Shown: positions 22,570-44,038 of the stretch, piece after piece
Numbering within the stretch: the stretch's first letter is position 1
Layout: every line of letters starts with the position of its first letter
Assembly (NCBI GenBank): GCA_003154775.1
Contig: PMES01000069.1
Coordinates: forward strand, 1-57,788
Reading direction: 5' to 3'
DNA length: 57,788 bases
DNA from: Acidobacteriota bacterium
GTDB lineage: Bacteria > Acidobacteriota > Terriglobia > Acidiferrales > UBA7541
Program-made: the position numbers and the translations under genes
Notes under the pieces: model-generated
The model's input: the letters and a program-made list of their open reading frames with translations, nothing else
Database searches by the model: none
Told to the model about the DNA's origin: nothing

Positions 22570-22578
22570 ATGAGCTTG

Positions 22579-23850: not shown

Positions 23851-23880
23851 TTTTTCAACTCGGACACGTAGCGTCTGGAA

Positions 23881-24813: not shown

Positions 24814-24928
24814 TGGATAATGACTTGGCCCTAAGGGCCAGCTGGAAATTAGTCCCGGAAGTGACCAGAAACTTGGTTAGTTCAAAAAAAGTTAGAAAGC
24901 TGGCTCATGGTATCAACCAGTCACCAGC

Positions 24929-25990: not shown

Positions 25991-26018
25991 GCCCTTGGTT
26001 TCCTTTTTACAGCTGGCT

Positions 26019-26570
26019 TCACGGAACGATCTGGCGAATCACCTCAAGCAGTGAGTGCCCAACAATATCCGCTTCACAAGTTGAGGCCTTGCGGTGTTCT
26101 GGCTCGGTGTCCGTCTGATTTTTCATCGACAGGAGCGCCGTTCTGCACCCGGCGTTTTTGCCGGCTTGGATGTCTACGTCGGAATCGCCAATCATCCACG
26201 ACGCCGCCAGATCAAGCCCATGCGCGCGAGCTGCATCCAGCAACATGCCGGGAGTAGGTTTCCGGCAACTGCAGGGTGGCTCAATTTCGTGCGGGCAGTA
26301 ATAGATTGCGTCAATCGTGGCGCCGGCCTGCACGAGATGATCAGACATTCGCCCGTGCAGCTGTTGCAGGTCAGCCTCCGTTATGAGGCCTTTCGCGACA
26401 CAGCGTTGGTTGGTAACAACGATGACGCAAAGCCCGGCTCGGTTTAACTGAGCAATACCTTCGATTACCCCTGGTAAAAGATGAAAGTCTTCCCAGCGGG
26501 TCACGTACTGGCCTTCTGGAGCTTTTCGATTGATGACGCCGTCACGATCCAAGAACACTGCTCTGGTCAA
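26019..26570 (-). CDS. gmhB: D-glycero-D-manno-heptose-1,7-bisphosphate 7-phosphatase
   Basis: A 183-residue HAD-IIIA phosphatase. MTRAVFLDRDGVINRK carries the DxD nucleophile/acid pair, CVIVVTNQRCVAKGLITEAD the motif II Thr/Ser, and YYCPHEIEPPCSCRKPTPGM the Cys/His zinc loop plus the motif III Lys that defines GmhB. SWMIGDSDVDIQAGKNAGC is motif IV. It removes the 7-phosphate from heptose 1,7-bisphosphate, leaving heptose 1-phosphate for HddC. Its length matches the family (about 180). It lies between hddC and hddA with short gaps, as in known GDP-heptose operons. Confidence 0.93.
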   Translation of the reverse strand: MTRAVFLDRDGVINRKAPEGQYVTRWEDFHLLPGVIEGIAQLNRAGLCVIVVTNQRCVAKGLITEADLQQLHGRMSDHLVQAGATIDAIYYCPHEIEPPCSCRKPTPGMLLDAARAHGLDLAASWMIGDSDVDIQAGKNAGCRTALLSMKNQTDTEPEHRKASTCEADIVGHSLLEVIRQIVP

Positions 26571-26606
26571 GGAGCAACACCTTTTCTACGCAATGTGCGG
26601 CCCGAA

Positions 26607-27377
26607 TCACGATTCGGGCAGAGCTGCCTGATAGAGACTGTGGCAGAGCGTTTGGGCACGCGCGTAATCTTCGGGTGTCCCGATGTCGATGAACATTCCG
26701 TGCTGCTCAAGGGCATATACCCCATGCTCGAGTAACCAAGGAAACACATCTTTCTCAAGGCTGGCGGGTCCGGCCGGAATATGCTGCAGAATGGCGCGCT
26801 TGAACACGTACACGCCGCCGTTTACGATGCCAGGAACCGGTGCCCCCATCTTTTCACGAAAGCCAAGAACTCGATTCTGTGTGTTCAGTTGAACGGTTCC
26901 GTATCGCGTTGCGTCCGGGACTCTGCGTACCGCCATGCTGATCAAACCGTCGTGCTCGCGATGAAAACGAATGAGCTCATGGAAATCGAGTTCGAGAAAT
27001 GAGTCGCCATTCATGACCAGGAAGTCCGAAGCTTGCTTGAGATAGCCTTCCGCGAATTTCACCGCACCCGCTGTTCCGAGCGGGCGCGGTTCCTTCGAGT
27101 AGGCAATCGCAACGTCCCATTTGTGTCCATCGTTGAATTCTCTTTCGACCTGGTCGGCAAGATGCCCGGTACACATCACCAAGCGGCGTATGCCCTGCGA
27201 TCGCAGTTGCCTGACCAGCAGCTGAAGGAAAGGCGCATCTCCAACGGGAGCCAGTGGTTTGGGGGTAGCTGGCAGTACGGGTTGCAATCGCGTCCCTATC
27301 CCGCCGACGAGCAGAAGGGCAGGTAGGTCTTCTGGAGCAACACCCGGTCGCGACGGAATCTTTGCTTTGGGTTCCAC
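26607..27377 (-). CDS. hddC: D-glycero-alpha-D-manno-heptose-1-phosphate guanylyltransferase
   Basis: A 256-residue nucleotidyltransferase. ALLLVGGIGTRLQPVLPATP and PKPLAPVGDAPFLQLLVRQL are the pyrophosphorylase signature with the catalytic Arg/Lys; FLVMNGDSFLELD provides the metal-binding Asp, VNGGVYVFKRAIL and MFIDIGTPEDYARAQ the C-terminal catalytic motifs. With hddA and gmhB beside it the substrate is very likely heptose 1-phosphate and the product GDP-D-glycero-alpha-D-manno-heptose, although the domain alone would also fit mannose or glucose 1-phosphate. There is no left-handed beta-helix extension. Confidence 0.88.
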   Translation of the reverse strand: MEPKAKIPSRPGVAPEDLPALLLVGGIGTRLQPVLPATPKPLAPVGDAPFLQLLVRQLRSQGIRRLVMCTGHLADQVEREFNDGHKWDVAIAYSKEPRPLGTAGAVKFAEGYLKQASDFLVMNGDSFLELDFHELIRFHREHDGLISMAVRRVPDATRYGTVQLNTQNRVLGFREKMGAPVPGIVNGGVYVFKRAILQHIPAGPASLEKDVFPWLLEHGVYALEQHGMFIDIGTPEDYARAQTLCHSLYQAALPES

Positions 27378-27436
27378 TGTGAGTACGCGATTCGATTCAA
27401 ATTCAGGAAAAGGATCGTGCTCGGCCCTTCAAAAAA

Positions 27437-28384
27437 TTACATGGCCCCGTTCCAATATTCCAACATCGAGCCGAGCGTCTGCTCGATCGAATTCAACGGT
27501 CTCCAACCTGTCTCTCTACGGATCTTGCGTGTACTGCCGAAGATAATTCTTTCGTCCGAGGGGCGCATTAGCCGCGGAACGGGCCGGATCTCTGCTTGCA
27601 CACCGGATAAGCGGATCGCATTGTGCAAGAGCTCGCTAATCTGATAGGTCCGGGCTGCGCACAAATTGTAAGCCTCACCTCGCTTGCCTTTTGTCGCCGC
27701 CAGATAGAAACCGCGCACCGTATCACTAACATCCAGGAACGCCCGGCGGGGCTGCAGGTTTCCAACTTCGATCACCGGCGGTTGCAGACCCTTCTTGATG
27801 CGAATCAACTGCCGCACGAAATCCGAGGGCGCATCGTTCGTCTTGCCCGGGCCCGTGGTGTTGAAAAGCCGCACGTTGACTGCCGGAATGCTGTAATCCA
27901 GGAAATATTCACGCGCCAGGAGGTCTAGGCAAACTTTGCTGATACCGTACGGATGTAGCGGCTGAAGCGGCTGCTCTTCCGTGACCGGAATTGCCCATGC
28001 CGGCACATGACCGTATTCGGCACTCGAGCACGCCGAAACGACAACGGGAAGCCGCTTCATGTGACGCACTGCCTCGAACAGGTGCAATGAGCCCATGATG
28101 TTGGATTCGAAGGTCGTGACTGGATCCGACCACGACACCGTGGGCAGGCTCTGCGCCCCGAAGTGAAATAGGTGTGTCGGCTGATACTCAGCTAGGATCT
28201 GCGTAACGCGCTGGCCATTCCGTAGATCACATTGCGTGAAACGTAGATTCGGCAACCTCGGAAAAGAAGCAGCGTCGCCCTGGAGATAGGATCCGATTAC
28301 ATTCCATCCCCTGGCCTGCAGAAACTTCACCATATGAGATCCGATAAATCCCTCTGCGCCCGTTACCAGTGCGATCTTTTTCAT
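27437..28384 (-). CDS. GDP-mannose 4,6-dehydratase-like SDR, possibly acting on GDP-heptose
   Basis: A 315-residue extended SDR. IALVTGAEGFIGSHMVKFLQ is the NAD(P)-binding fingerprint, SACSSAEYGHV (about 117-127) holds the catalytic Ser/Glu, and HPYGISK (144-150) the Tyr-xxx-Lys pair. TTGPGKTNDAPSDFVRQLIR and NLQPRRAFLDVSDTVRGFYL are typical of GDP-mannose dehydratase relatives. Because it sits 59 bases upstream of hddC, the natural substrate may be GDP-D-glycero-D-manno-heptose, as for the DmhA dehydratases of 6-deoxyheptose pathways in Campylobacter and Yersinia. That is inference; a GDP-mannose or reductase role is also open. Confidence 0.82.
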   Translation of the reverse strand: MKKIALVTGAEGFIGSHMVKFLQARGWNVIGSYLQGDAASFPRLPNLRFTQCDLRNGQRVTQILAEYQPTHLFHFGAQSLPTVSWSDPVTTFESNIMGSLHLFEAVRHMKRLPVVVSACSSAEYGHVPAWAIPVTEEQPLQPLHPYGISKVCLDLLAREYFLDYSIPAVNVRLFNTTGPGKTNDAPSDFVRQLIRIKKGLQPPVIEVGNLQPRRAFLDVSDTVRGFYLAATKGKRGEAYNLCAARTYQISELLHNAIRLSGVQAEIRPVPRLMRPSDERIIFGSTRKIRRETGWRPLNSIEQTLGSMLEYWNGAM

Positions 28385-28480
28385 TGGAATTGTAAGGTCG
28401 CTTTCGACGGTACTTAACGGCCAAAAGTCCGCAGCTTTGAACCGGGGGTTCCCACTCGGAGCGGACCGTTCCGAGAAATC

Positions 28481-29755
28481 CTATTCTCTATTGAGGATTT
28501 CACTCACGCGACCGAGCAGCGTCTCCCTCTCACGGTCCCAGGCGTGCTCCAGGAAAACCTCTTGCGCTTTTCGCACAATCTCCTGAACTTCGCGGGGGTG
28601 GGAGTACGCGTATTCTATTTGTTGCGCCAGATCGCCGGGGTTCCCGGGCTCGAAGAATAGAAGAGACTCTTTGTTGAAGTAGTCTTGTATGCCTGGCGTG
28701 GACGGTGCGATGACCGGCTTCCCCAAAGCCAGATACTCAAAAATGCGCGTCGGTGTATTGATCTCCGTAAATGCATTTCGATGGTTGGGTATGACGCCCA
28801 GATCGCAGTTCTCGATTTCCGTTACAAGATCTTCTAGCCGCCTGGATCCGAGATAGCGAACTGATTCCTGCAGGTTCTTGTTCCGGGCCGACTCCATCAT
28901 GCGCTCAAGGAATGGCGTGTTCGGGCCGACAATGCGTAGTTCCGCGGTGGGGACAGCCTCGCGTACTCGCGAGAGCGCGTCGATAGCGACGTCCAGCCCA
29001 TTCCGCTCAACGAGCGATCCGTGGTACATGATCACGAAGGGTTCATTGCCAGTTTTTCCTCGAAAAGCCTCAGGCCGTGTCGCGCGGAATGGGAAAATCT
29101 TTCCGTCGGGAGAATTCATGACCACCGCAATCTTCTCCGGCCGGCAGCTGCGGGAGGAGAAGATTCGTTTGCACGCGACGTTGACCGTGATCACCAAATT
29201 CGCCCGCGCGATGCTCCACTTCTCAAGACGCTTTAACAGTTGAACGCTCTTACTACCCTGCGGGGCGCCAAAGATCGTCATCATGAGCTCGGGCATCGGA
29301 TCGTGTAAATCGAGGACCACCTTTGCTCCCAGTGCCTTGGGTATCAACGAACTCAGCACAAGTATATCGGGCATATTGTGCACGTAGACCAAGTCATAGC
29401 GGCGGGCCAATGAGCGCAGTGCAAAGATCACGGCTGAAGTCAGAATGAAGCCAGCATACCGGTACGCGTAGGCGAACTTCCCGCGCCGGTCATGCTTAAT
29501 GGGAAGACGCAGAACGTTGACCCCGTTCAGGACCTCTCGTTTAGGAGCACCTTGATTTCCCAAGCATATGAGATCTACGCTAGCACCCTCTGCTACCAGT
29601 GCATCCACAGCGCGGCGTGGTCTGGGATCGAAGGGGTAAGGCGAAAACGTAACCATCGCCACCCGCTTACCAGCAAAACGACTGCTGTTTCCGGTCACCG
29701 CAGGGTGAACACCTGAAGCGGGATTAATCGGTAGGGCCATGGGGGAAGTAATCAT
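28481..29755 (-). CDS. Family 4 (GT-B) glycosyltransferase
   Basis: A 424-residue GT-B enzyme. RVAMVTFSPYPFDPRPRRAV opens the acceptor domain, YDLVYVHNMPDILVLSSLIP is typical of GT4, and the C-terminal domain has PFVIMYHGSLVERNGLDVAI at about residues 240-260, NCDLGVIPNHRNAFTEINTP and FEYLALGKPVIAPSTPGIQD with the donor-binding Glu. It lies directly downstream of the short nucleotide-sugar dehydrogenase-like gene. It probably transfers one EPS sugar, conceivably the heptose, in the cytoplasm. The first 25 residues before the GT fold are non-conserved, so the start could be somewhat later than ATG 29755. Confidence 0.86.
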   Translation of the reverse strand: MITSPMALPINPASGVHPAVTGNSSRFAGKRVAMVTFSPYPFDPRPRRAVDALVAEGASVDLICLGNQGAPKREVLNGVNVLRLPIKHDRRGKFAYAYRYAGFILTSAVIFALRSLARRYDLVYVHNMPDILVLSSLIPKALGAKVVLDLHDPMPELMMTIFGAPQGSKSVQLLKRLEKWSIARANLVITVNVACKRIFSSRSCRPEKIAVVMNSPDGKIFPFRATRPEAFRGKTGNEPFVIMYHGSLVERNGLDVAIDALSRVREAVPTAELRIVGPNTPFLERMMESARNKNLQESVRYLGSRRLEDLVTEIENCDLGVIPNHRNAFTEINTPTRIFEYLALGKPVIAPSTPGIQDYFNKESLLFFEPGNPGDLAQQIEYAYSHPREVQEIVRKAQEVFLEHAWDRERETLLGRVSEILNRE

Positions 29756-29824
29756 CTCACGGTCCGGGTTTAATCAGCAACGCGGGCCACGTTCTCGCAT
29801 GGATCCGCGGTCGCAGCAGGGGCT

Positions 29825-30598
29825 TCAATCCCCTGACCCAGTCGCCTTCGTGGTCTGTTCGCTCAATTTCTTACGGGACTCACGCTCGATCTTCGCACGA
29901 TTGGAAGATTCGATTGCCCTAAGGAGTGAGGAATCATCAAACTTGCGCAGGATTTCGATGTTAGGCATGACACAATGGCCGCCGATAATTCCTGGGAAGT
30001 ACTTCGTCGTTGGAAAAAACGAGATCTCTTCATAGAAGGAGATGATTTCTTCGTAAGCCTGACCCGTTTGATCACAGTACCGCTCAAGCTCCTGCGCCCA
30101 AGCAATCAGCAGGCCAAAGTAAGTCGTCTCGGTCAGCTTCGCCAGTTCGGTTGCTTCCGGAGCTGACAAAATCCTTGTCTTGAAGCCCGCAGACTCGAAA
30201 TGCTCGGCAGCGGACTTGCCGCAGGTGCGATCAATACCTCCCACGAATTTCGTGTAAGTGCGTAGTTCCTGCTTCATACGCACGTGCTTGCCGCGCACCG
30301 GGCTGTGCACCACAGCGACACCGGTTCGCTCTGCTATCGTTCGCGTGGTACCGACTCCGACCGTGCTGTTAATAATTGTCAGCGGGGGCCTGAAAAGCTC
30401 GATGTAACGGGCCGTCTCACCGACAAAATCCTTGATCGCGAACGGGTAGCACACATGCAAAACATCGACCTTCCCTACGGGCCCGGCAGGCGGCGCAACG
30501 TCTATTCCGATAACATTGTAGTGCTCAGAGAGGCATTCAAGGAGAGGCCGGCCCACCTCTCCAAGTCCGACGACAACGACATTGTTTTCTTGTCTCAC
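29825..30598 (-). CDS. Short nucleotide-sugar dehydrogenase-like protein
   Basis: A 257-residue protein resembling the first two thirds of UDP-glucose/GDP-mannose dehydrogenases. NVVVVGLGEVGRPLLECLSE is the Rossmann fingerprint, TIINSTVGVGTTRTIAERTG and HSPVRGKHVRMKQELR match conserved parts of domain 1, TELAKLTETTYFGLLIAWAQ the central helix, and FPGIIGGHCVMPNIEIL holds the GGHC motif with the catalytic Cys. The C-terminal nucleotide-binding domain (about 120 residues in true dehydrogenases) is missing and the N-terminal domain is shortened. The remainder is a charged helix. It could be a dimer-only or regulatory relative, or act on a different ligand. No frameshift is seen. Confidence 0.75.
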   Translation of the reverse strand: MRQENNVVVVGLGEVGRPLLECLSEHYNVIGIDVAPPAGPVGKVDVLHVCYPFAIKDFVGETARYIELFRPPLTIINSTVGVGTTRTIAERTGVAVVHSPVRGKHVRMKQELRTYTKFVGGIDRTCGKSAAEHFESAGFKTRILSAPEATELAKLTETTYFGLLIAWAQELERYCDQTGQAYEEIISFYEEISFFPTTKYFPGIIGGHCVMPNIEILRKFDDSSLLRAIESSNRAKIERESRKKLSEQTTKATGSGD

Positions 30599-30801: not shown

Positions 30802-32022
30802 TTACACCACCAACACATTTTGCGGCCCGGTGTACTTTGCGCTTCGAACCACAGCGTGCACGACCCGCGCCTGATCCGCCTCTGAAAGGCCGGGGAACAT
30901 GGGGAGGGACACGATTCGTTCGGCAGCCTTTTCACACACAGGGAAAGCGCCATGCTTGTACCCGAGGCCACTGTACGCCTTCTGTAGATGCAGGGGCACA
31001 GGATAATGTATGCCCGTATCGATCTTCTCTTTTGCGAGATCTGCTTGTACTGCTTCCCGGTTCTCCACTTGCAAAACGTACAGGTGATAGACGGCCTTCG
31101 ACCAGGGAGCTTCAAACGGCGGAATGATGTTCGCTTCCGCGGCAGCAAACAATTCATTATATTTGCGGGCATGCTCACGGCGGCTTTCGTTCCACCTCGC
31201 GAGGTGCTTCAGCTTGACGCGCAGAATGCCGGCCTGAATGGCATCGAGCCGGCCGTTGTAACCCTCAACGTCGTGATAATACTTCTTGGACTGTCCGTGG
31301 TCGCGGAACATTCTGACTTTACGAGCGATCGCTTCATCGTCCGTGGTAACCGCGCCGCCTTCGCCACAGGCGCCTAAATTCTTGCCGGGATAAAAGCTGA
31401 ACGCGGCCGCGCGGCCCATCGAACCCGCCTTTCGCCAGCAATTCTCCTTCTTCGAAAAATACTCCGCACCGTGTGCCTGGCAGGCGTCTTCGATAACGGC
31501 CAGGTTGTAGCGTTCCGCCATCTCCAGGATCGGATCCATGTCCGCCATCTGGCCGTACAGGTGAACGGGAACCACAGCGGTGACCGGTTTCCCGAGAGTC
31601 CGATGCACAAGTCGTCTGGTTGCGGGATCGAATACGCACTGTGTCTGCAGGTATTGGCGAAGCTTCTCAGGGTCCATCGTGTACGTACGCGCATCAATGT
31701 CGACAAAGTCCGGACGAGCGCCAGCCTGCGAAATCGCTTCGGTTGTAGCAATGAAGGTGAGCGGGACGGTCAAGACGACATCACCCGGATTAACCCCCGC
31801 TGCGGAGAGGGCGAAGCGCAACGCGTCGGTTCCACTGCTCACTCCGACACTGTGCTTCGCATCACAGTACAGAGCAAATTCGCGCTCGAATCCCTCCACC
31901 ATCGGGCCACCGATGAAGCCCGCCGTCGCGAGCGCGGCTTTGAAAACATCCACCAATTCCTCTTGGAGTTCCCGATGCGGTGTAACGAGATCGACGAAGG
32001 GAATCTTAGCATCTTGACTCAT
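30802..32022 (-). CDS. DegT/DnrJ/EryC1/StrS-family sugar aminotransferase
   Basis: A 406-residue PLP enzyme. KIPFVDLVTPHRELQEELVD opens the fold; VGVSSGTDALRFALSAAGVN binds the PLP phosphate, VIEDACQAHGAEYFSKK holds the PLP-contacting Asp, and FSFYPGKNLGACGEGGAVTT contains the Schiff-base Lys (PGKN). It transfers an amino group, normally from glutamate, to a keto sugar nucleotide. The reading frame is open to 32223 but ATG 32022 overlaps the stop of the upstream acyltransferase gene as ATGA, so this start is preferred. The pair probably makes an N-acylated amino sugar. The 203 bases downstream (30599-30801) appear non-coding. Confidence 0.92.
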   Translation of the reverse strand: MSQDAKIPFVDLVTPHRELQEELVDVFKAALATAGFIGGPMVEGFEREFALYCDAKHSVGVSSGTDALRFALSAAGVNPGDVVLTVPLTFIATTEAISQAGARPDFVDIDARTYTMDPEKLRQYLQTQCVFDPATRRLVHRTLGKPVTAVVPVHLYGQMADMDPILEMAERYNLAVIEDACQAHGAEYFSKKENCWRKAGSMGRAAAFSFYPGKNLGACGEGGAVTTDDEAIARKVRMFRDHGQSKKYYHDVEGYNGRLDAIQAGILRVKLKHLARWNESRREHARKYNELFAAAEANIIPPFEAPWSKAVYHLYVLQVENREAVQADLAKEKIDTGIHYPVPLHLQKAYSGLGYKHGAFPVCEKAAERIVSLPMFPGLSEADQARVVHAVVRSAKYTGPQNVLVV

Positions 32023-32522
32023 GGAGCTATCCTTTCGCTTGGATTGACGGAACGCAGTACCTTGGCCGGGTTGCCAGCTACAATCGTGTTGGGTGGCACC
32101 TCGCGGGTCACAACGCTGCCAGCGCCGACGATAGCGTTCTCCCCGATGACGACATTGGAGAGAATCGTGGCCCCTGAGCCAATCGAGGCGCCCTTCTTCA
32201 CGAGGGTCTGCTCGACTTTCCAATCCTGTTCGGTCTGTAACTGGCCGTCGGGCGCTGTTGCGCGTGGGTAGGAATCATTAATGAAGGTGACGCCATGACC
32301 GATGAATACGTCGTCCTCGATCGTGACGCCTTCACAAATAAAGCTATGGCTGGAGACCTTGCAGTTCTTCCCGACGGTTGCGTTCTTCTGGATTTCAACA
32401 AAGGCTCCGATTTTCGTGTTCTCTCCGATTTGGCAGCCGTAAAGGTTGATGAATTTAGAAAGCTTGACTCCGTCAGCCAATTTCACATCTGGAGCAATCG
32501 AGCAGAATTCGTTCACAGGCAC
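32019..32522 (-). CDS. Left-handed beta-helix (hexapeptide) sugar N-acyltransferase
   Basis: About 167 residues of hexapeptide repeats: NLYGCQIGENTKIGAFVEIQ, ATVGKNCKVSSHSFICEGVT, EDDVFIGHGVTFINDSYPRA, GASIGSGATILSNVVIGENA and IVGAGSVVTREVPPNTIVAG, the left-handed beta-helix of WbpD/QdtC/FdtC-type N-acetyl or N-acyl transferases, with the conserved NDxxPRA loop. It probably acylates the amino group installed by the DegT enzyme encoded next, with which it overlaps by ATGA. The ATG at 32552 has no ribosome binding site; AAGGAG seven bases before GTG 32522 makes that the better start. It is the first gene after a sigma-54 promoter and an ops-like leader. Confidence 0.88.
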   Translation of the reverse strand: MPVNEFCSIAPDVKLADGVKLSKFINLYGCQIGENTKIGAFVEIQKNATVGKNCKVSSHSFICEGVTIEDDVFIGHGVTFINDSYPRATAPDGQLQTEQDWKVEQTLVKKGASIGSGATILSNVVIGENAIVGAGSVVTREVPPNTIVAGNPAKVLRSVNPSERIAP

Positions 32523-32624
32523 ACCAATTCTCCTTCCATTTGCATGGAACAATCGGCAAAAAGGTGCTTCTCAAAAAAAGCGGACATCTATTGGGGTGTT
32601 GGGGTTGCCGTGCACCATTTGGGC

Positions 32625-32635
32625 AGGCTACCGCC
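32625..32635 (-). promoter_or_regulatory. ops-like element (GGCGGTAGCCT) in operon leader
   Basis: The minus strand reads AATGGCGGTAGCCTG. GGCGGTAGC followed by any base and T is the ops pause element that recruits RfaH in enterobacteria. The same sequence lies in the leader of the NusG-paralogue gene (36669-36679). Here it is about 110 bases downstream of the sigma-54 start region and 103 bases before the GTG of the acyltransferase gene, so it would be transcribed. Confidence 0.65.
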
Positions 32636-32745
32636 ATTAACGACACTAGTGGACATCACCGATTCTTCCTTCATGTGAAACTAACTGTAACAAAATAAAT
32701 AACTTAGTTGCAAGAAAAGAAACGTCAGACTGCACGAAAAAGTAT

Positions 32746-32761
32746 TGCAATCAGACTGCCA
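32746..32761 (-). promoter_or_regulatory. Sigma-54 (-24/-12) promoter of the main EPS operon
   Basis: The minus strand reads TGGCAGTCTGATTGCA; against the consensus TGGCAC-N5-TTGCW only one of the defined bases differs, and GG and GC are the required ten bases apart. Transcription would begin near 32734 and run through an ops-like site into the acyltransferase/DegT gene and the long leftward operon. The 377 bases upstream to the end of the toroid gene (32762-33138) contain no gene. Confidence 0.75.
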
Positions 32762-33138
32762 GACTACCGCCGGCTAGGTGAAGAGCCAATGAAACCGAAT
32801 CATGTCTCAATTGACTGAAAACGCATAGGTTAGTAACAAAGTAGGCGACCAAAGAACTTCGCCTGGAGGGGATCTCTCTACGCGAGGCGAGGGAAAACTC
32901 TTACCACATTTTGACAAACGGGGTCCTAGCGGCACCTAGCGTTGAGTTCCAGGCTCATCTCTACCTTATCGTCTAGGGTGTTCCTTCCAGCCGGTTCACT
33001 TGATTTTGCGCACGAAGGATCGAAATCTGCTCTGTACCTTCTGCGCCGCGGGCAAGTCCCAACGTGTCTGCTGCTGAGGCTTGTGTCCCCTGCTAAGTCT
33101 TACAATCTGTGCTTCCACGGAGTGCCTCGGTTGGTTCC

Positions 33139-34365
33139 CTAATGTGTTGTATCGGCATCGGTAGCAATCCCTACCTTCGGTAGGCCAAACCTGCCGAAGG
33201 CGTAGAGTAACCAGCCGAAGTGATCGGGCCGGGCCTCATACCGAATTCGGAGGCTCTCGGCCTGCGGCCCACCGGAAATGTTCATGAAGTGGAGCGCCGC
33301 CTCCCAATAGTTCGTCATCCGCCTCCTCGGCGCGATGGAATCCCAAATCAAACCTCGATCCAGATTCCGAAGGTCATCCCCAAGTTCATTCCCTCCGGCA
33401 AGCCAAGCTAATCCCTTGAATATCGGTTCGTGAAAGCTCTGGCCAGTGGCTTCTCCTAAAGCAAGGAGGCTAACAGGCGCAATGCCATCCTGATGTAGGG
33501 AAAACACAGGGTATCGATTCACGACGCGGCATGCGCTCTTATCGTAAAGGTACCACCATTGCCCCATTTCTCCTTGGAGCGCGCGAAGCGAGTTGGCACA
33601 ACCCAACGCGGACCCGAGTGGCTCCTCAATCTGAAATGCCCGGGCGAAAGTTGTGAGCGCGTAAATGGCGTAAATTTGATCGGCGAACGTTCCAAAGCGG
33701 TTGCAAAAGGCCCGTTGAAAAAACCCAGGAAATCCTGCGTGTCCGAAGATCGCGCCCTCGCTTTGGTTGTCCTGCAGCAAGTGGTATGTATCCACAGCGA
33801 TGTCCGTCAGATCCGGAATTGTTCCTGGACACGCGAGTCGTGCGTGCGCTATGCCTGCCAGAAACCAAGCTAATCCCTTAGTGCAGGCCTGGCGGCCATC
33901 CGCGTAACTCTCGAGGGCCGTCCCCAATTCCCATTCCTTGAGCAGCACTCCGAGTCTCTCGGGCGCGCACTTGGCTGTGAACCAAATCAGAAGGCCTAGA
34001 TCTCCGACACTCCTGACCCAGCTTGTGTCTTTCAAGACCACATCTCGAATCGAAGCGACGTCGACAGGTGGTGCTGCCCCCGACTCCGCCAGACGCTGCA
34101 GACCCAAGAGCGCAATGACCGTGCGTTTTCGTGATGTCCCTTCCCGGTGAAATCCGTCCTCCGTCAAAGTGACGCGCCGAGAGAAGAGCTTTTCTTTTTC
34201 CTCGAACAACGAAACAAGCGACCGCAATGCCAGCGCATTCAGGGCGGGAATGTCCAGTTGCGAACCACAATTGTCAGTAGGAACGTTGACTCGCTCCCGA
34301 ACAGAAACGGCTTCGAGGAGCGGCCGTGGTGACATTTCGCTTCTTGATGAGTATTCTTGCGCCAA
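33139..34365 (-). CDS. Alpha/alpha-toroid protein of unknown function
   Basis: A 408-residue, probably cytoplasmic, helix-rich protein. Its segments (RKRTVIALLGLQRLAESG, SVGDLGLLIWFTAKCAPERL, ACTKGLAWFLAGIAHARLAC, QIYAIYALTTFARAFQIEE, LRALQGEMGQWWYLYDKSAC, GIAPVSLLALGEATGQSFHE) are spaced like the hairpins of a terpenoid-cyclase/six-hairpin toroid. LQGEMGQWWYLYD resembles the QxxxGxW-type repeat motif, as seen in the toroid at 22579-23850. No catalytic residues can be assigned. It sits between the sugar transferase gene and the second sigma-54 promoter, as if it belonged to the first transcript. A role in modifying EPS sugars is a guess. Confidence 0.55.
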   Translation of the reverse strand: MAQEYSSRSEMSPRPLLEAVSVRERVNVPTDNCGSQLDIPALNALALRSLVSLFEEKEKLFSRRVTLTEDGFHREGTSRKRTVIALLGLQRLAESGAAPPVDVASIRDVVLKDTSWVRSVGDLGLLIWFTAKCAPERLGVLLKEWELGTALESYADGRQACTKGLAWFLAGIAHARLACPGTIPDLTDIAVDTYHLLQDNQSEGAIFGHAGFPGFFQRAFCNRFGTFADQIYAIYALTTFARAFQIEEPLGSALGCANSLRALQGEMGQWWYLYDKSACRVVNRYPVFSLHQDGIAPVSLLALGEATGQSFHEPIFKGLAWLAGGNELGDDLRNLDRGLIWDSIAPRRRMTNYWEAALHFMNISGGPQAESLRIRYEARPDHFGWLLYAFGRFGLPKVGIATDADTTH

Positions 34366-34745
34366 GATTGATTCGATCAGAGAGATTGCCGGAATGGAGA
34401 GAGGTTCAAGAGACGGGCGAATTCATGGTGATGTATTACTTGCGTTAGTTCTTGAGGTTTCTGCTCATTTCCATGGCCGCGAGCGCACCAAAACTCCCAT
34501 ACGACCTACACTTGTGTTCTCTCGCCGCGCTCTGGCAATGTGGGATTCAACGAGCCGCACAGGAGACTGCGAATTGGCAAGTCGACAATTGAGATGTGCG
34601 GCCAGGTCAGATCGCGATGGAAGCTCTGCGAGGCACTTCAGAAAATCATATTCCGAAGCTGTTTAAGATCGGGTCGTGGAGAAAACAATGGAATCTGGGG
34701 TCTATGGAATGTCCAGCCCTGCTGGACCAGCGACATCCTCAGAGA
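34366..34745. other. Intergenic stretch without recognised gene
   Basis: The 380 bases between the toroid gene and the sugar transferase gene have no coding frame I can support. Translations of both strands give only short, low-quality frames, and I see no promoter better than chance or an inverted repeat with a T tract. Confidence 0.5.
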
Positions 34746-35933
34746 TCAGTAAGCGCCGTCACCCATTAGGACCACAAGTGGAGTAACGAGAAGGATCTTG
34801 AGGTCCAACCACAGCGACCAGCACTGCGAATAACGCAGATCCAAGCGGACCATATCTTCAAAGCAGATGCGACTCCGGCCACTCACTTGCCATAATCCTG
34901 TAACACCGGGTTTCATCTCGAATACTCTGCGGCGGTGCCAATCATCATAAAGTTCAAACTCATACGGCACTGGAGGACGCGGGCCCACGAGAGACATCTC
35001 GCCGCGCAATACATTCCAGAACTGCGGAAACTCATCAAGGCTAAGCTTGCGGAGGAATTTCCCAATCGGTGTGACCCGCGGATCACTCGTAATCTTGTAC
35101 ACGACGGGTTCGGTCTCGCTCTCATTCTCCTTCGCCGCCTTGCCCGCGATAAGCTGTTGGACATAATCACGATGAATCTTTGGATCATTGTCCGTGTACA
35201 TGGTACGAAACTTAAGGCACTGGAATCTTTTCCCCAGCCATCCCACCCGTTCCTGTTTGAAAATGACCTCACCTTTCGAACTTAGCTTGATTGCCAAAGC
35301 GATAGCCACTAGAAGGGGCGAGTGAACTAGCAAGAAAATGCTGCTTCCCACAATGTCAATCCCGCGCTTGATAATGATCGGGAGCCGCTTTTTTAGAACC
35401 TTTCGAGAATAATCTTGGTACGTCTCGATGTCGGCCACTCGATCGGGTCGGTGCATATCCCAACTTTCTGGAATAAGATGAGCCGAAACGACGAGATTCG
35501 ATGCGAGCCGGTGATCGAGGTTATCCCGCAAGGCGGTCACAACTTTGGAATGCAAGACCTCGGTAATGGGACTCTTCCCCTGTAGGTTGACTTCCGTGAA
35601 TATCACGCCGAGAATCAGGCCCTCCTCGTACCAACCGATGATGTCGGTCTCTCGAGTCGCATCGGAGACGACCGACGTGAGTCGCTCGAGGAAAGCCGCG
35701 TCCCTCGCCTTCTTGTGTACCGCATGTGAGTCAACCAGGATTAGAACGACTGGCTTGCGAGAACGTTCCGCGCGCCGACGTTCGCGGGTTAGCATCGCGT
35801 GGAACGCTTCTTCTTTGAGAACGTTTTCTCGGGACGCTAGCAGGTTGCCGAAGCGCGAGAGCGCCTTCCGGCCATTTCCCTGGCGCGCTCCTTGTCCTCT
35901 AAGAATGGCGTTCTTTGAGTCGCTATTTCCCAT
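34746..35933 (-). CDS. Initiating sugar transferase (undecaprenyl-phosphate type) with a degenerate GGDEF-like N-terminal domain
   Basis: A 395-residue protein. The C-terminal 205 residues are a bacterial sugar transferase: KRGIDIVGSSIFLLVHSPLL is the membrane re-entrant helix (about 189-208), then KQERVGWLGKRFQCLKFRTM, KLSLDEFPQFWNVLRGEMSL, VGPRPPVPYEFELYDDWHRR and KPGVTGLWQVSGRS, all canonical. It would link the first sugar phosphate to undecaprenyl phosphate, starting EPS repeat synthesis. The N-terminal part is soluble and replaces the four helices of WcaJ-type enzymes. Residues 45-115 resemble a GGDEF domain: RRRAERSRKPVVLILVD, then RETD at 94-97 where the RxxD I-site falls, and WYEEGLILGV where GGDEF would stand. 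It lies in the operon headed by the NusG paralogue. Confidence 0.88.
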   Translation of the reverse strand: MGNSDSKNAILRGQGARQGNGRKALSRFGNLLASRENVLKEEAFHAMLTRERRRAERSRKPVVLILVDSHAVHKKARDAAFLERLTSVVSDATRETDIIGWYEEGLILGVIFTEVNLQGKSPITEVLHSKVVTALRDNLDHRLASNLVVSAHLIPESWDMHRPDRVADIETYQDYSRKVLKKRLPIIIKRGIDIVGSSIFLLVHSPLLVAIALAIKLSSKGEVIFKQERVGWLGKRFQCLKFRTMYTDNDPKIHRDYVQQLIAGKAAKENESETEPVVYKITSDPRVTPIGKFLRKLSLDEFPQFWNVLRGEMSLVGPRPPVPYEFELYDDWHRRRVFEMKPGVTGLWQVSGRSRICFEDMVRLDLRYSQCWSLWLDLKILLVTPLVVLMGDGAY

Positions 35934-36041
35934 TCTTGTTCCTGTGTCCTAACTCTTCGACGTGGCTGAAGATCCCGGTCCAGTTAGGAATTCCTACAGC
36001 GGCCGCTAAACCATGAAAACTTGCCATACTCAATTACCGTT

Positions 36042-36617
36042 CTAGGCAACCACTCCTTGCTGCAACGGATGCGACATGATCAGCTCGAGAGCGGGGGTTC
36101 GAGTTGGTCCAAGGGGACGCACGCAGCTCCGATCGATCTCCAACGCTACGGATCGACGAAGCAGCGAAACGGAGACCACGATGCGATGATTCCCTTTGAA
36201 CTTGATCAAAATGCCCTCAAGGCCGCTGAGAGCGTCACTCTCGATCCGAATTCTCTGACCAATTTCAAGGTAGGGCCACGGTTCGGCGGGTAAACCCGAG
36301 GAGACAACCGTTTGGATGGCAGCAATCTCAGCATCGTCCACCGGAACGGGAACTCTGCCACAGCCGACCACGGCAATCACGCCTGGTGTAACAAGGATCG
36401 GTAAGCGATTCAGCGCATCAAACTGGCAGAAGACATAGCCGGGAAAGAGAGGGGCGTTGAGCTGCTTCAGCCTTCCATTCCAACGCTTCTTCGTCTGATA
36501 CGTGGGGAGGAGAGTCTGATAGCCTTTTCCAGAAAGTAGCAGGGCCGTTGAGTTCTCCCAGCGCGTCCTGACTTGGAGGGCAAACCATCTTTGGCCGTCT
36601 GTTCCGGGACTCATCAT
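36042..36617 (-). CDS. Specialised NusG paralogue (RfaH/UpxY-like antiterminator)
   Basis: A 191-residue NusG-family protein. RWFALQVRTRWENSTALLLS begins the NGN domain, and KRWNGRLKQLNAPLFPGYVF is its signature, as in NusG, RfaH and UpxY. A KOW-type C-terminal domain follows (GQRIRIESDALSGLEGILIK, with NHRIVVSVSLLRRSVALEID). Its location at the head of an EPS locus, not in a secE/rplK setting, marks it as a specialised paralogue rather than housekeeping NusG. Such proteins bind paused RNA polymerase and let it read through long operons. It is preceded by a perfect sigma-54 promoter and an ops-like element. The sugar transferase gene follows after 108 bases. Confidence 0.88.
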   Translation of the reverse strand: MMSPGTDGQRWFALQVRTRWENSTALLLSGKGYQTLLPTYQTKKRWNGRLKQLNAPLFPGYVFCQFDALNRLPILVTPGVIAVVGCGRVPVPVDDAEIAAIQTVVSSGLPAEPWPYLEIGQRIRIESDALSGLEGILIKFKGNHRIVVSVSLLRRSVALEIDRSCVRPLGPTRTPALELIMSHPLQQGVVA

Positions 36618-36668
36618 GAATCAGTGTCTCCCTTTAGGTCTAGCGATCTCGAAACTCAACTCTAATCT

Positions 36669-36679
36669 AGGCTACCGCC
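36669..36679 (-). promoter_or_regulatory. ops-like element (GGCGGTAGCCT) in leader of the NusG paralogue gene
   Basis: The minus strand reads CAATGGCGGTAGCCTAG, containing the RfaH-recruiting ops core GGCGGTAGCnT. It lies about 20-30 bases after the predicted sigma-54 transcription start and 52 bases before the ATG of the NusG paralogue gene. Thirteen bases (ATGGCGGTAGCCT) are identical with the element at 32625-32635, while the flanks differ. Confidence 0.68.
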
Positions 36680-36709: not shown

Positions 36710-36725
36710 AGCAACTGGAGTGCCA
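36710..36725 (-). promoter_or_regulatory. Sigma-54 promoter, perfect consensus
   Basis: The minus strand reads TGGCACTCCAGTTGCT, an exact match to TGGCAC-N5-TTGCW. It would start a transcript near 36698 that includes the ops-like site, the NusG paralogue, the sugar transferase and possibly the toroid gene. A long inverted repeat abuts the -24 box on its upstream side. Confidence 0.82.
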
Positions 36726-36764: not shown

Positions 36765-37789
36765 AAGATCCCAAAAGATAGATAAAAAAGGCTTTAACTA
36801 GGATGCTTGAAGGCAATCACCTGCGGTGTGAGAACGGTCACGCTAGAGAGCCAGAACTAGTGAAAACGCTTGCCACTATTTGCGAAATGGCTTCCTCCAT
36901 TGGCCCACAGGATCCTGATGAAGGCAGTGTATCTTTAATATTTTCATTATGTTACAAGACATTGCGCGCCCGAGGGCGTGGTCCATTTTGGCGCAATCTG
37001 TCGACGATTCAGTCCTTAATGTCTGCACCTGTTGGCTTCGGGTCTGTGTCACGTTGAGACGGTGTCGTGAGAGAGTCGGTACTTAGAGAATGGCGTAAAG
37101 CCACGAAGAGTGCGGGGATAGGGGCTCGTGGGTAGGCCCGAGTTCACGACGGTGTTCTGCTTCCTGCAACGCGTCGACGACCAGGCTATCGGCTGGACCG
37201 TCGACGCGACGAGTTTGGCGCAACCGAGCGGTCAGCGTGTTCTTTGTATGGCGCATGCACCATCACGGGCAAAAATCGCTGCCGTGACGGGACTGGCTGA
37301 ACTGCGTGGTCGTGACGGATCTGGATCAGCCCTTGCTAGAGTCAAAGAGCCCACGACGCAACCCGTGGAGCGACTTCGCGAATTTCCCCGCGGCCGTGGA
37401 ACCTGCTTCTCAGAAAACCCCGATCGAGATGGTGTCGGCAACCCCGGGTTCGACAGCGGAAGAAGTCATACGTAAATCCGGCAGCAGGTCGCGGCGCAAA
37501 GTGTAGCCCCCCACTAAGCGTGGGAAGAAAACGTGGCGGGTGCGCTGGCTCCGTGCCGAGGTGCCGCGGGCCTTTCGGCGGCAGCTCACCCGGCGTCGGG
37601 CATTGGTCGGGAGCGTTTCCCCTTGGCGAAGCGCAACTTCTCGGTTCCTGCGCCGGGCCGCTCCCTGGGCATGCACGTGCCGCTAAAGGCTCTTGCGCTT
37701 ATTCTGAAACTCACATCAGGGCTTCGTACCTTGGGGGAGGTTCCTGTAGGATAGTCAGAGTTGCAGGCTGTCTGCAGGAGAAGACTCTT
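36765..37789. other. Kilobase-long region without a recognised gene
   Basis: Between the sigma-54 promoter of the NusG paralogue and the divergent exosortase gene lie about 1,000 bases with no gene I can support. Several frames stay open for 60-115 codons on both strands in the GC-rich part (37080-37680), but none resembles a known family or has a good start. The last 80 bases should include the exosortase promoter. It could hold a decayed gene, a long leader or a small RNA. Confidence 0.45.
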
Positions 37790-38683
37790 TTGAACGCTGA
37801 GACTCAAAGTGACCGCAGACGACTCCTGTTTTACGCCCTGTGGCTCGTCCTATCGATCGCCTTCTTCTGGAAACCGTGTGTCGCGTTGGTTCGTTTCTCG
37901 CTTGTGAACGACAATGCATCGCACATTATTCTCATTCCATTCATAAGCGCATGGCTGATTTACATAGAGCAAAAGCAGATTTTTCGACGGGTTTCTTTTG
38001 ATTATTCTTTCGCTGGTGTCCTCTTCACGATCTCCGCTGTCACTTACATCTGGACGTTCCGATCCCCTGCTTCCTGGACACAAGCTGACCTGCTCGCCGG
38101 CTTCGCGCTGGCATTGGTGCTTCTGTGGATCTCCGGTTTTGTTCTTTTTTTTGGGAGAGCAGCACTTAAGAATGCACCTTTCCCATTGCTCTTTCTCTTT
38201 CTCACGATCCCGTTACCGGACGCGCTGCTGAATCGCTCGATCTATTTCCTGCAAAAGGGATCCGCAGATGTCGCTGAAATGATTTTTGACCTCGTGGGAG
38301 TTCCCGCTCTTCGAGAGGGATTCGTTTTTCATCTCGCGCATTTCAATATTGAAGTCGCGAAGGAATGCAGCGGTATCCGCTCGAGCCTGGCATTACTTAT
38401 TCTCGCGCTTGTCGTTGGGCATCTATTGCTGCACACCCTCTGGAGACAGGCCGTTCTCGTGATTGCGGGTTTGCTGATTATGGTGGTAAAGAACGGAATC
38501 CGGATCGCGACTTTGACGATCCTCGCGCAATATGTGGACCCGGGCTTTCTTTACGGTCGACTGCATCGTGAAGGTGGCGTGGTGTTTTTCCTGCTCGGTC
38601 TGGTTCTTCTGTTACCGATCCTCTGGCTCCTCCAGCGCAGCGAGAAACCAGTGGGGACAATCGAAAACTCTTCGGCTGCCTGA
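37790..38683 (+). CDS. Exosortase-family protein
   Basis: A 297-residue polytopic membrane protein with about eight helices, the usual fold and length of exosortases without extra domains. The catalytic triad is visible: Cys193 in VAKECSGIRSSLALL, Arg238 in MVVKNGIRIATLTI, and His259 in GRLHREGGVVFF. Exosortases cleave C-terminal sorting signals (PEP-CTERM type) of secreted proteins at the periplasmic face, and are typically linked to EPS loci. No EpsI-like C-terminal domain is fused. The frame is open from 37520, but AGGAG eight bases before TTG 37790 and the loss of membrane-protein character upstream fix the start. It converges with the BY-kinase gene. No PEP-CTERM substrate is seen in this window. 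Confidence 0.88.
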   Translation: MNAETQSDRRRLLFYALWLVLSIAFFWKPCVALVRFSLVNDNASHIILIPFISAWLIYIEQKQIFRRVSFDYSFAGVLFTISAVTYIWTFRSPASWTQADLLAGFALALVLLWISGFVLFFGRAALKNAPFPLLFLFLTIPLPDALLNRSIYFLQKGSADVAEMIFDLVGVPALREGFVFHLAHFNIEVAKECSGIRSSLALLILALVVGHLLLHTLWRQAVLVIAGLLIMVVKNGIRIATLTILAQYVDPGFLYGRLHREGGVVFFLLGLVLLLPILWLLQRSEKPVGTIENSSAA

Positions 38684-41679: not shown

Positions 41680-41695
41680 GGGCGCAAAATTGCAC
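41680..41695 (+). promoter_or_regulatory. Possible weak sigma-54 promoter of the TPR lipoprotein gene
   Basis: AGGGCGCAAAATTGCA has the exact spacing and a perfect -12 half (TTGCA), but only GG is conserved in the -24 half. It lies 55 bases before ATG 41750, opposite the stronger divergent site at 41357-41372. It could be a chance match. Confidence 0.3.
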
Positions 41696-41749
41696 CCAGC
41701 TACACTCTCGAGAGGGTATGTGTGGAATTTTGCCCCTAGATTGAGGCCC

Positions 41750-44038
41750 ATGAGACGTAAGTCAAACCTGGCGCTGTTGTTGAGTGTTTCTCTGCTTCTG
41801 GGCGTTTTTGCGGCAGGCTGCTCACGTGATCCTAATGTGCGAAAGCAAAAGTTCTTCGACCAGGGAAACCGTGATTTTGACAGGGGCAAGTATCCCGAGG
41901 CCTTAATTTCCTATCGCCGCGCATTGCAGATCGACTCGCGCTTTGTCGAGGCTCATTACAAACTTGCACAATGTTATTTGAAACAGCGAAGCTGGGCCCC
42001 GGCATTTCAGGAGCTGAATCGCACGGTCGATCTCCAGCCGGACAACTGGCCTGCGCAACTAGAGATCGCTCGAATGTTTCTCTCCGCCCGCAGGTATCAG
42101 GACGCCAAGGACCGCGCTCTATTGATCCTTCACAGCAATCCAAAGGACGCAGAGGCACAAATCCTGCTTTCAGACGCGGACTTCGCCTTAGGCAGCCCGA
42201 AAGACGCGCTCGAGGAAGCAAAAGAAGCGACAGAAATGGCACCGGATCATGCAGCGGGCTATCTCCATCTTGCTTTGATTCAGACGCGGACAGGGGCACT
42301 TACCGAAGCGGAGACCAGCCTGAAAAAAGCGCAATCCTGCGACCCATCCTCCATCGCACCGTTGTTGGCCCTGGGAAGATTCTACCACCAGCAGAAGCGC
42401 TGGACGGATGCGGAAAAGCAGTATCAAGCGGCAATTGCACTCGCGCCCAAAAATCCCATACCTCGCGCCGCACTGGCAGGTCTGTACCTCAGTCAGGGAC
42501 AGGAATCGCTGGCGGAAAAGACCTTGATGGATGCGAAGCAACAACTCGGTGACGATCCGGCCGGATATCGCCTGCTCGGTGACTACTATCTCGCCCGCGG
42601 AGAAAATGCTAAGGCTCTCACCGAGTTCGCCGCTTTATCGGCGCAATACAAAAACGATCTTAGTGTTCAAAAAGCATACGCCCAGCTTCTGATTTTGAAC
42701 CGGAGATTCGATGAAGCCGGGAAACTTACGGACGATCTTCTCAAGAAGACACCCCAGGATGCCGAAGTATTGATCCTGAAAGGGCAGATACAGCTTCAGC
42801 AGAGGAAAATTGACGAAAGCATTCAGACCTTGCAACAGGCCCGCACGAATGCACCTGACAATGCTTTCGGCCATTACGAACTGGGCTTGGCCTACAAAGA
42901 AAAGGGCGATACGCAGCAAGCGGAGAGTGAATGGCGGGAAGCTGTACGCTTGCGTCCGGAGCTGGCTGAGGCTTGGCTCGCGCTGGGAGCAAGCGCCACC
43001 CAGCGTGGCGATTGGCGGACTCTGGAAGAGGTCAGCAATCAGCTGAAAAAATATTCGCCGAATTCAATCGAGGCCTATCTCGATCACGCCACCGCACGTG
43101 TCAACCAGGGAGACGCGCTGGGAGCGGAAGCCGACCTCGTTCATGTTCAGCAACTGGCCCCCAATAGCCCGTTACCCTATGCAAAGCTGGGCGAATTGCG
43201 GCTGGCGCAACGACGCCCAGGGGATGCGGAAACCCTGTTTCGTCAGGCCCTCACTCACAATCCGGACTTCCCCGAAGCCGTGCGCGGGATGGTCCAAGTT
43301 CTTCTCATCAAGAACAAGCCTGCTGACGCCTTGACCTTTTTGCGTGACCAGATTACCAGGAATCCCAATAGTTCCGGTCTGTACCAACTGCAAGCTGAGG
43401 TATTCCTGCGAACCAAACAAGCGGATCAGGCGCTCTCATCGCTCACACGCGCGGTTGATTTGGATAACAAAAACGTGGGCGCTCTTGCTCTTCTGGCGCA
43501 GCTCCAAGCCGCAAGAGGTCAACCGGATCAGGCCATCACGAATTACCAGCGAGCGATTGCGGTGGCACCCACCGACGCTGGCCTTTATGTTGCTCTCGGC
43601 AGTGTCTATGAATCGATCGGCAACTGGCAGCAAGCAGAAACCACATACCAGAAAGCACTGACCATTCAGCCGGACAACGCCCTGGCAGCCAATAACCTCG
43701 CCTACCTCCTCCTCGAGCATGGCGGCAGCCCGAACGCGGCTTTGAGTCTCGCCGAGACGGCGCGCAAGGGCCTTCCCAAGCTCCCCAATTCCGCCGATAC
43801 CTTGGGTTGGGCCTATTACAACAACGGCGCCTACTCCGTTGCGGCGCCACTTTTTGAAGATGCCGTCAAAAATGTGCCGAATAATCAGACCTACCGCTAT
43901 CATCTCGGTTTGACCTACAAGAAGCTCAACGATTCCTCTCGCGCCAAGGTCGAACTCGAAAAGGCCATCGCCTTGAATCCCACTTCTCCGCTCGCTGACC
44001 ATGCGCGCCGCGCTCTTTCTGAATTGACGGGCGGTTGA
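41750..44038 (+). CDS. TPR-repeat lipoprotein of exosortase/EPS systems (PrsT-like)
   Basis: A 762-residue exported lipoprotein. From ATG 41750 it opens MRRKSNLALLLSVSLLLGVF and AAGC forms the lipobox, so Cys25 would be lipidated; translation from the frame's first ATG at 41690 would spoil the signal peptide. The rest is a continuous run of about 18-20 tetratricopeptide repeats (examples GKYPEALISYRRALQIDSR, GDTQQAESEWREAVRLRPEL, GNWQQAETTYQKALTIQPDN). It resembles the large TPR lipoproteins found with exosortase A loci, where they are thought to scaffold EPS export or assembly in the periplasm. The next intact gene is rfbB, with an rfbA remnant between. Confidence 0.87.
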   Translation: MRRKSNLALLLSVSLLLGVFAAGCSRDPNVRKQKFFDQGNRDFDRGKYPEALISYRRALQIDSRFVEAHYKLAQCYLKQRSWAPAFQELNRTVDLQPDNWPAQLEIARMFLSARRYQDAKDRALLILHSNPKDAEAQILLSDADFALGSPKDALEEAKEATEMAPDHAAGYLHLALIQTRTGALTEAETSLKKAQSCDPSSIAPLLALGRFYHQQKRWTDAEKQYQAAIALAPKNPIPRAALAGLYLSQGQESLAEKTLMDAKQQLGDDPAGYRLLGDYYLARGENAKALTEFAALSAQYKNDLSVQKAYAQLLILNRRFDEAGKLTDDLLKKTPQDAEVLILKGQIQLQQRKIDESIQTLQQARTNAPDNAFGHYELGLAYKEKGDTQQAESEWREAVRLRPELAEAWLALGASATQRGDWRTLEEVSNQLKKYSPNSIEAYLDHATARVNQGDALGAEADLVHVQQLAPNSPLPYAKLGELRLAQRRPGDAETLFRQALTHNPDFPEAVRGMVQVLLIKNKPADALTFLRDQITRNPNSSGLYQLQAEVFLRTKQADQALSSLTRAVDLDNKNVGALALLAQLQAARGQPDQAITNYQRAIAVAPTDAGLYVALGSVYESIGNWQQAETTYQKALTIQPDNALAANNLAYLLLEHGGSPNAALSLAETARKGLPKLPNSADTLGWAYYNNGAYSVAAPLFEDAVKNVPNNQTYRYHLGLTYKKLNDSSRAKVELEKAIALNPTSPLADHARRALSELTGG

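Follow-up and report, generated by a model that had tools for sequence, protein, structure and literature searches.

A candidate RfaH/ops-like circuit for exopolysaccharide operons in Acidobacteriota: a NusG paralogue, ops-like leader elements and sigma-54-type sites

The closest described counterparts of the system presented here are the NusG paralogues RfaH, UpxY and LoaP. In Escherichia coli, RfaH acts with the ops element, a DNA signal in several unlinked leaders of surface-polysaccharide operons, whose non-template strand forms a hairpin with the loop G4-A7 and the pair C3:G8 (PMC5995543; papers are cited here by PubMed Central accession and through excerpts). RfaH is placed mostly in Proteobacteria (PMC7593976, PMC12691694). 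The UpxY gene of Bacteroides stands at the head of polysaccharide operons, and an ops-like recruitment element was not found described for it in those parts of the literature that were searched. LoaP also has a leader signal, an UNCG-type RNA hairpin in its own leader that the protein binds (PMC12691694). A further point of comparison is provided by the PrsK/PrsR-RpoN loci for exosortase and exopolysaccharide (EPS); in Aquincola, a PEP-CTERM gene depends on RpoN, and the EPS genes seem to be RpoN-independent (PMC9850573). Here we analyze a 57,788-nt contig of an Acidobacteriota bacterium, PMES01000069.1 (the window, by which we mean this whole stretch), in which two copies of an ops-like element stand in leaders of an EPS locus and a gene for a NusG paralogue lies directly behind one of them. 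We estimate at roughly 0.8 the probability that these components form an RfaH-like circuit for operon-specific recruitment and antitermination at EPS operons, as an initial annotation made from the sequence had proposed. That annotation knew of no description of such a circuit in Acidobacteriota, and we found none in the literature searched, which was mostly without subscription papers and is thus weak evidence. In the excerpt available, a list of paralogue families from 2025 includes no entry for this phylum (PMC12691694), and word searches for "acidobacteri" found nothing in PMC7593976 (as a whole word), PMC13015549 and PMC7819879. PMC6358824, which shares the terms sigma54, RfaH and ops, is about E. 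coli lipopolysaccharide, according to its excerpt.

Both copies of GGCGGTAGCCT are on the minus strand, which is the coding strand (Table 1), where the initial annotation had located them. Between element A and the start codon of the NusG-paralogue gene (ATG at 36617) are 51 nt. Element B stands in the leader ahead of the genes for a hexapeptide acyltransferase and a DegT aminotransferase; this leader is also covered, at 32625, by a 145-aa open frame. As had been noted, the core is identical to the E. coli DNA signal in every letter. The two copies were said to share 13 bases between differing flanks; the flanks do differ, but the common block comprises 14 bases, AATGGCGGTAGCCT. Matches with one mismatch number seven in the window versus 3.16 expected, a count reached by 7 of 100 shuffles. 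A near-copy, GGCGGTAGTCT at 32761-32771 on the minus strand, coincides in part with the beginning of leader B's sigma-54-type site and may be due to chance.

The initial annotation expected the motif to be more frequent in EPS leaders than in the genome at large. Taken by itself, the 11-mer shows no enrichment in the 4.6-Mb genome of origin (19 matches of GGCGGTAGCNT versus 37 of the reversed pattern), but three of the 19 exact copies have TGGCN7TTGC, which we take to be a sigma-54-type -24/-12 site, within 200 nt upstream, and all three lie in leaders of polysaccharide or paralogue genes. They are elements A and B and an unlinked third copy on another contig (G000:C105:43902-43912; G, C and L numbers are our handles for genomes, contigs and loci). 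The genes behind the third copy encode ABC-2 permease, Wzt, pyruvyl transferase, PglD-type, NeuB and Epimerase_2 domains, further nucleotidyl- and cytidylyltransferase, short-chain dehydrogenase and glycosyltransferase domains. The remaining 16 copies reside inside open frames of 101–966 aa, none with a sigma-54-type site upstream; chance occurrence is likely for these 16, though not for the three leaders. Elements A and B stand above chance because of the upstream sigma-54-type site and the conservation before related genes.

Matches to the paralogue at E 1e-3 are present in 82 of the 89 family genomes; the weakest are probably housekeeping NusG. Three named relatives are metagenome-assembled genomes labelled Candidatus Acidiferrales, Acidobacteria and Acidobacteriales, in agreement with the phylum that the initial annotation had thought probable. 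We fetched 80 relatives' genes from the top of the match list, leaving out a contig-end fragment (G076:C38); the 80 include G000:C75 and G004:C180, which stand lower in the list. An exact GGCGGTAGC occurs no more than 250 nt upstream of 49 of the 80 genes, i.e., in 49 of the 67 with at least 46% identity and in none of the 13 below, so the element is conserved before related paralogue genes, contrary to the outcome that the initial annotation had named as refuting its proposal; from the frequency in the remainder of these sequences, read on the sense strand, 0.003 copies per leader would be expected. All 49 copies are in sense orientation, with 0 antisense. For an alignment on the element, 61 leaders were chosen by a list of nine ops-like 9-mers, and the conservation of letters 1–9 is therefore partly a result of the choice. 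Not owed to it are T11, found in 58 of the 61 leaders as in the E. coli signal, and an A at -2, found in 48. Likewise independent of the choice is the conservation of a block TGNGACTC at -12 to -5 (0.9–1.7 bits), and within the range of -24 to +30 no column outside -12 to +13 exceeds 0.29 bits, indicating that the flanks have diverged. A tree of 81 proteins, with its root drawn at the midpoint, splits a clade of 71, 60 of them having ops at no more than one mismatch, from ten without it (support 97). The ops label requires 8 changes on this tree compared with 18.9 in shuffles, none of 500 being as low. The element and its association with the paralogue clade are near certain.

Most leaders of the ten proteins without ops, which form the sister clade, share another element, roughly TGTAAGTSACRGGGCGRAGCY, with the core GGCG(A/G)AGC, a feature distinguishing the family from RfaH/ops. 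The genome of the window itself encodes a second paralogue on contig C75, whose leader contains this triloop-type element (one exact match) and which heads a cluster of nucleotidyltransferase, epimerase, DegT, flippase, Wzy-type and glycosyltransferase genes. Within this second polysaccharide cluster (L161, G000:C75:9430-25929), a DDE transposase gene is located between the flippase and epimerase genes. Both elements fit a GC-loop-GC scheme, in which the loop is GNNA (tetraloop) or GNA (triloop). Such loops on at least two G-C pairs give very stable DNA mini-hairpins (PMC4686876). The pattern GGC(GNA or GNNA)GC is present in 64 of the 80 family leaders, compared with 5.3 in Markov shuffles and one of 80 same-length gene stretches. 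Of 89 leaders from other parts of the phylum, 28 contain it, compared with 8.6 in shuffles and 4 of 89 gene stretches. When the pattern was defined, the family leaders and the first 29 of these phylum leaders had already been inspected; the 60 unseen ones contain it in 17 cases versus 6.0 in shuffles and 3 inside genes.

The type of loop follows the clade. Among the 70 ops-clade leaders, 58 have the tetraloop (one of them also a triloop match) and 12 neither, while nine of the ten sister-clade leaders have the triloop and one neither (Fisher 2e-11 for 58:0 versus 0:9, the rows being related). The tetraloop variants GTTA, GATA and GTAA retain G4, A7 and the stem, and single departures such as GGTG in L107 occur. 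At position 10, where E. coli ops12 has a G, 55 of the 61 aligned leaders have a C or T, which allows pairing with G1. Folding with DNA energies yielded a 3-pair hairpin for GGCGGTAGCCT (-2.4 kcal/mol), a sequence able to form the C3:G8 stem and G4-A7 loop of the E. coli hairpin, and no hairpin for two triloop oligos, for which the energy model may lack a GNA bonus. Triloop-type matches were also seen downstream of, rather than before, a paralogue gene at G333:C28:347347 (paralogue at 359624), G263:C3:9207 and G102:C123:33106.

The NusG paralogue remains under all four NCBIfam cut-offs. Its best match is UpxY (NF033644, 91.3 bits versus 100), and the scores are 71.9 versus 144.5 for RfaH (TIGR01955), 52.9 versus 125 for LoaP (NF033641) and 33.2 versus 135.7 for NusG; like the UpxY gene, its gene is found at the head of a polysaccharide operon. 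We compared 65 proteins with an ops leader, aligned to E. coli RfaH. The position of K10 is R or K in 59 of them, a basic residue as in RfaH. At T68, an RfaH contact to the loop, 57 have P, and 11 of 22 triloop-side proteins have R. As for the residues of RfaH autoinhibition, I93 is I in 54 proteins, E48 is mainly V, L or A, and F130 is mainly L or V; E48 and F130 are required for autoinhibition in RfaH (PMC7593976). The paralogue differs from RfaH also by its location inside the EPS locus behind its own ops and by leaders with sigma-54-type sites. On present evidence, it probably works like RfaH, yet it is not to be filed as an RfaH family member. Thus, the term "RfaH-like" used at the outset is retained for the likely mode of action and given up for family membership. 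The initial annotation did not mention the sigma-54-type sites, the unlinked target, the second type of hairpin or the conserved block upstream of the element.

Elements A, B and the third copy share the arrangement with an upstream sigma-54-type site, the distance from the site start to G1 being 46 nt, 126 nt and 56 nt, respectively. If the usual -24/-12 spacing to the transcription start applies, as we presume in placing the starts, G1 would fall at the transcript positions given in Table 1 for A and B and at about +31 for the third copy, and the element would therefore be transcribed. The pattern TGGCRN6TTGC matches six times in the window versus 1.52 expected, a number that none of 100 shuffles reached, and rpoN was found in the genome. 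The sequence TGGCAC is given as a -24 motif in PMC9850573. Related leaders carry equivalent sites at a similar distance before ops. In the 89 genomes of the family, TGGCN7TTGC followed at 22–50 nt by GCGGTAGCNT has 26 matches versus five of the reversed control, and a site with ops at 95–120 nt has eight versus three. Similarly, WATGGCGGTAGCNTR was found 32 times versus eight in the control, with a strict sigma-54-type site no more than 170 nt upstream in 21 of 30 fetched loci. The first open reading frame (ORF) of at least 100 aa behind 34 sigma-54/ops matches is a paralogue in 11 according to BLAST, and in L270 by position. Ten other first ORFs were assigned by Pfam to ABC-2 permease, NAD epimerase, GFO/IDH oxidoreductase, FemAB/GNAT, dTDP-sugar epimerase, nucleotidyltransferase, UDP-GlcNAc 2-epimerase, CheR-type and polysaccharide flippase, with one lacking a match. 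L268, L271, L276 and L278, which have no G at position 1, may be chance matches. The architecture of element B is repeated before a closely similar acyltransferase ORF in two other genomes (G034, L295; G017, L294). Seven leaders in which some 110 nt separate ops from the sigma-54-type site (the window at 32636-32746 on the minus strand, L291-L295 and L297) contain an extra common block, which reads CTAAGTTA(T/C)TTATTTTGTTA in the window and L295 and is looser in the other five.

Taking these sequence features together, we propose that sigma-54 RNA polymerase initiates at the EPS leaders, probably controlled by a sigma-54 activator encoded in the window, and would transcribe GGCGGTAGCYT some 20–100 nt after the start and pause there. 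The displaced non-template strand would form a mini-hairpin with the stem GGC/GCY and the loop GGTA. The NusG paralogue may then dock on the exposed loop and on RNA polymerase, displacing the housekeeping NusG, and would carry the polymerase through polysaccharide operons otherwise silenced by NusG and Rho. Presumable targets of the circuit are the paralogue's own operon, the neighbouring EPS block and the unlinked Wzm/Wzt-NeuB operon, whereas the sister paralogue on the other contig would serve its own cluster via the triloop hairpin GGGCGAAGC. It is an evenly balanced proposition that Acidobacteriota use a hairpin code, in which each paralogue clade reads its own loop, GNNA or GNA, on the same GC stem, and in which a cell maintains separate circuits, one of them coupled to sigma-54.

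Several observations weigh against this interpretation. The bipartite tetraloop pattern TGNGACTNNNNNGGCGGTAGC matched nine times versus 11 for the control in 396 genomes of the phylum, and support at this depth therefore comes only from where the matches lie. Two of the nine fall in the genome of the window; in L166, L169 and L170, from two other families, a NusG-paralogue ORF begins 31–56 nt behind the start of the element, L164 stands before a Poly_export gene, and the remaining three of the seven outside matches have no such gene behind them. The paralogue profile itself has matches at E 1e-20 in 118 of the 396 genomes. The triloop pattern is just mildly commoner than its control in the phylum (72 versus about 46); in the genome of the window, with one mismatch allowed, it has two matches versus three for the control, the leader on C75 being the one exact match. 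The 12 ops-clade leaders with neither loop are off the strict tetraloop patterns, some by one base. In the protein, the position of R73 is P in 60 of the 65 sequences, that of R23 is mainly G (33) or N (21), and that of H20 is H in just 15; because these residues are not, or in the case of H20 mostly not, conserved, recognition must differ in detail from that by RfaH. The AlphaFold model shows five strands in the C-terminal part, for which RfaH has an alpha-helical domain that refolds, but it is too poor for use (mean pLDDT 49.6).

The same holds for two observations on the coupling to sigma-54. A strict sigma-54-type site is present within 250 nt in just 17 of the 70 ops-clade paralogue leaders, and the coupling is therefore confined to a subset that includes the window. 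Furthermore, the genes of five close relatives of the window protein (L089, L090, L091, L094 and L095) lack ops in their leaders, although a sigma-54-type site is present there. The genomes of these relatives (G009, G010, G014, G012 and G007) contain WATGGCGGTAGCNTR or sigma-54/ops sites elsewhere, as does G082, whose element is broken. This combination is better explained by the reading of a target in trans than by a switch private to the NusG gene. The leaders L091 and L094 contain an inverted repeat like CCGTGA...TCACGG.

Among the alternatives, the strongest is a composite signal and is compatible with the proposed circuit: a nascent RNA hairpin would hold the polymerase, while the DNA mini-hairpin recruits the paralogue. 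Two conserved blocks only 4 nt apart agree with this variant, as does the pairing of the TGNGACTC arm with upstream sequence, which scores 13.6 versus 12.0 (sd 0.28; 0 of 500) when arms are shuffled among leaders. The arm is fully paired (7/7) in 18 of the 61 leaders versus a mean of 10.4 and a maximum of 17 in 300 shuffles. These figures are suggestive of a nascent-RNA hairpin formed by the arm in part of the family. However, RNAalifold did not support the arm: it found the ops mini-stem only and no covariation in 39 of the 49 distinct leaders, a choice that favoured the hairpin, as most of the omitted ten have no evident arm. Moreover, the sigma-54 leaders of the window and of its nearest relatives keep the DNA block without the upstream one. 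We hold the composite signal as a tentative possibility, with odds somewhat below even.

The excess of arm pairing, from shuffles that ignore relatedness, could also point to a signal residing in RNA alone, such as an attenuator, an RNA hairpin or a LoaP-like site, with the nascent RNA bound by the paralogue or another factor; LoaP sets a precedent, and an RNA hairpin may contribute here too. We consider this unlikely. Unlike the LoaP signal, the core is identical to a DNA signal, RNAalifold detected the mini-stem alone, and leader A is too short for an upstream hairpin, as only about 20 nt of the presumed transcript precede ops. The sole Rfam match (E ≤ 1) in 31900-37600, to a fluoride riboswitch, was rejected at 19.5 bits versus a gathering score of 34.

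A plain consensus pause, serving housekeeping NusG or the timing of translation with the paralogue being incidental, has in its favour that ops-like sequences pause diverse RNA polymerases (PMC7593976), but a generic pause does not need a loop type that tracks the paralogue clade, and we regard this explanation as highly improbable. Marginally less credit still is due to the view that the element is no elongation signal but part of a promoter, or is bound as duplex DNA by a regulator acting close to the promoter: the element does occur near sigma-54-type sites, but at a varying spacing (22–50 and 95–120 nt), in a fixed orientation (49:0) and inside the presumed transcript, and it is retained in many leaders that have no such site. 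A short leader peptide, ATGGCGGTAGCC read as M-A-V-A, which the AT before the element in both window copies might evoke, was rejected as next to impossible with an ATG in just 24 of the 61 leaders and no common frame or length. A DNA mini-hairpin recruiting the NusG paralogue is thus the reading that we prefer.

The other genes of the locus are listed in Table 1. The gene run downstream of element B includes glycosyltransferases, epimerases, a nucleotidyltransferase, a flippase, and SIS-domain and amidotransferase/Asn-synthase proteins. The best models for the response regulator are AtoC, NtrC and PrsR, all below their cut-offs, PrsR (TIGR02915) with 375 bits versus 502.6. As in the PrsK/PrsR-RpoN loci, a PrsR-similar sigma-54 response regulator, PrsT, an exosortase and sigma-54-type sites occur together, whereas, unlike in Aquincola, the sites are located ahead of EPS operons whose leaders contain ops. 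Intrinsic terminators in 31900-37600 number five versus 6.4 expected. Two proteins composed of repeated HYDIN/ASH-type Ig-like domains are encoded near the right end of the window, at 46262-48865 (-) and 56678-57739 (+).

Table 1. Features of the window. Positions are those of the 57,788-nt stretch; transcription starts are presumed from the usual -24/-12 spacing.
Feature	Position	Strand	Remarks
ops-like element A, GGCGGTAGCCT	36669..36679	-	G1 at about +21 of the presumed transcript
ops-like element B, GGCGGTAGCCT	32625..32635	-	G1 at about +101 of the presumed transcript
Sigma-54-type site, TGGCACTCCAGTTGC	36711..36725	-	presumed start at about 36699
Sigma-54-type site, TGGCAGTCTGATTGC	32747..32761	-	presumed start at about 32735
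NusG paralogue, 191 aa	36042..36617	-	Pfam NusG 60.2 bits
Polyprenyl glycosylphosphotransferase (EPS initiating enzyme), next behind NusG paralogue	34746..35933	-	TIGR03025 289.9, just below cut-off 295.55
408-aa ORF behind NusG paralogue	33139..34365	-	no Pfam/NCBIfam match
Hexapeptide acyltransferase, first gene behind element B	32019..32552	-	true start may be further in
DegT-type sugar aminotransferase	30802..32223	-	TIGR03588 249.8 bits, under cut-off 423.5; listed ORF runs into the acyltransferase ORF, true start probably further in
Polysaccharide gene run downstream of element B	3338..30598 (except ~10167-12300)	mostly -	
Exosortase	37520..38683	+	TIGR02602 120.6 bits, over cut-off 105.55
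Tyrosine autokinase	38782-39699	-	
Polysaccharide chain-length determinant	39723-41240	-	
PrsT-type TPR protein (XrtA/PEP-CTERM systems)	41690..44038	+	TIGR02917 344.9 bits, over cut-off 312.2
Sigma-54 activator without receiver domain	49318..50481	-	Pfam Sigma54_activat 214.3 bits
Sigma-54-dependent response regulator	51552..53042	-	candidate activator of both promoters
Histidine kinase adjoining the response regulator	53052..54281	-	

The present analysis supplies a candidate recruitment signal for a large family of NusG paralogues and points to the use of the ops hairpin together with a protein in which most of the contact residues of RfaH are absent. The natural loop variants make the question of structure versus sequence testable, and the circuit would link sigma-54 initiation to the operon-specific control of elongation. 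Our results suggest that some Acidobacteriota contain a second branch of the control system of the E. coli type, tied here to sigma-54 promoters.

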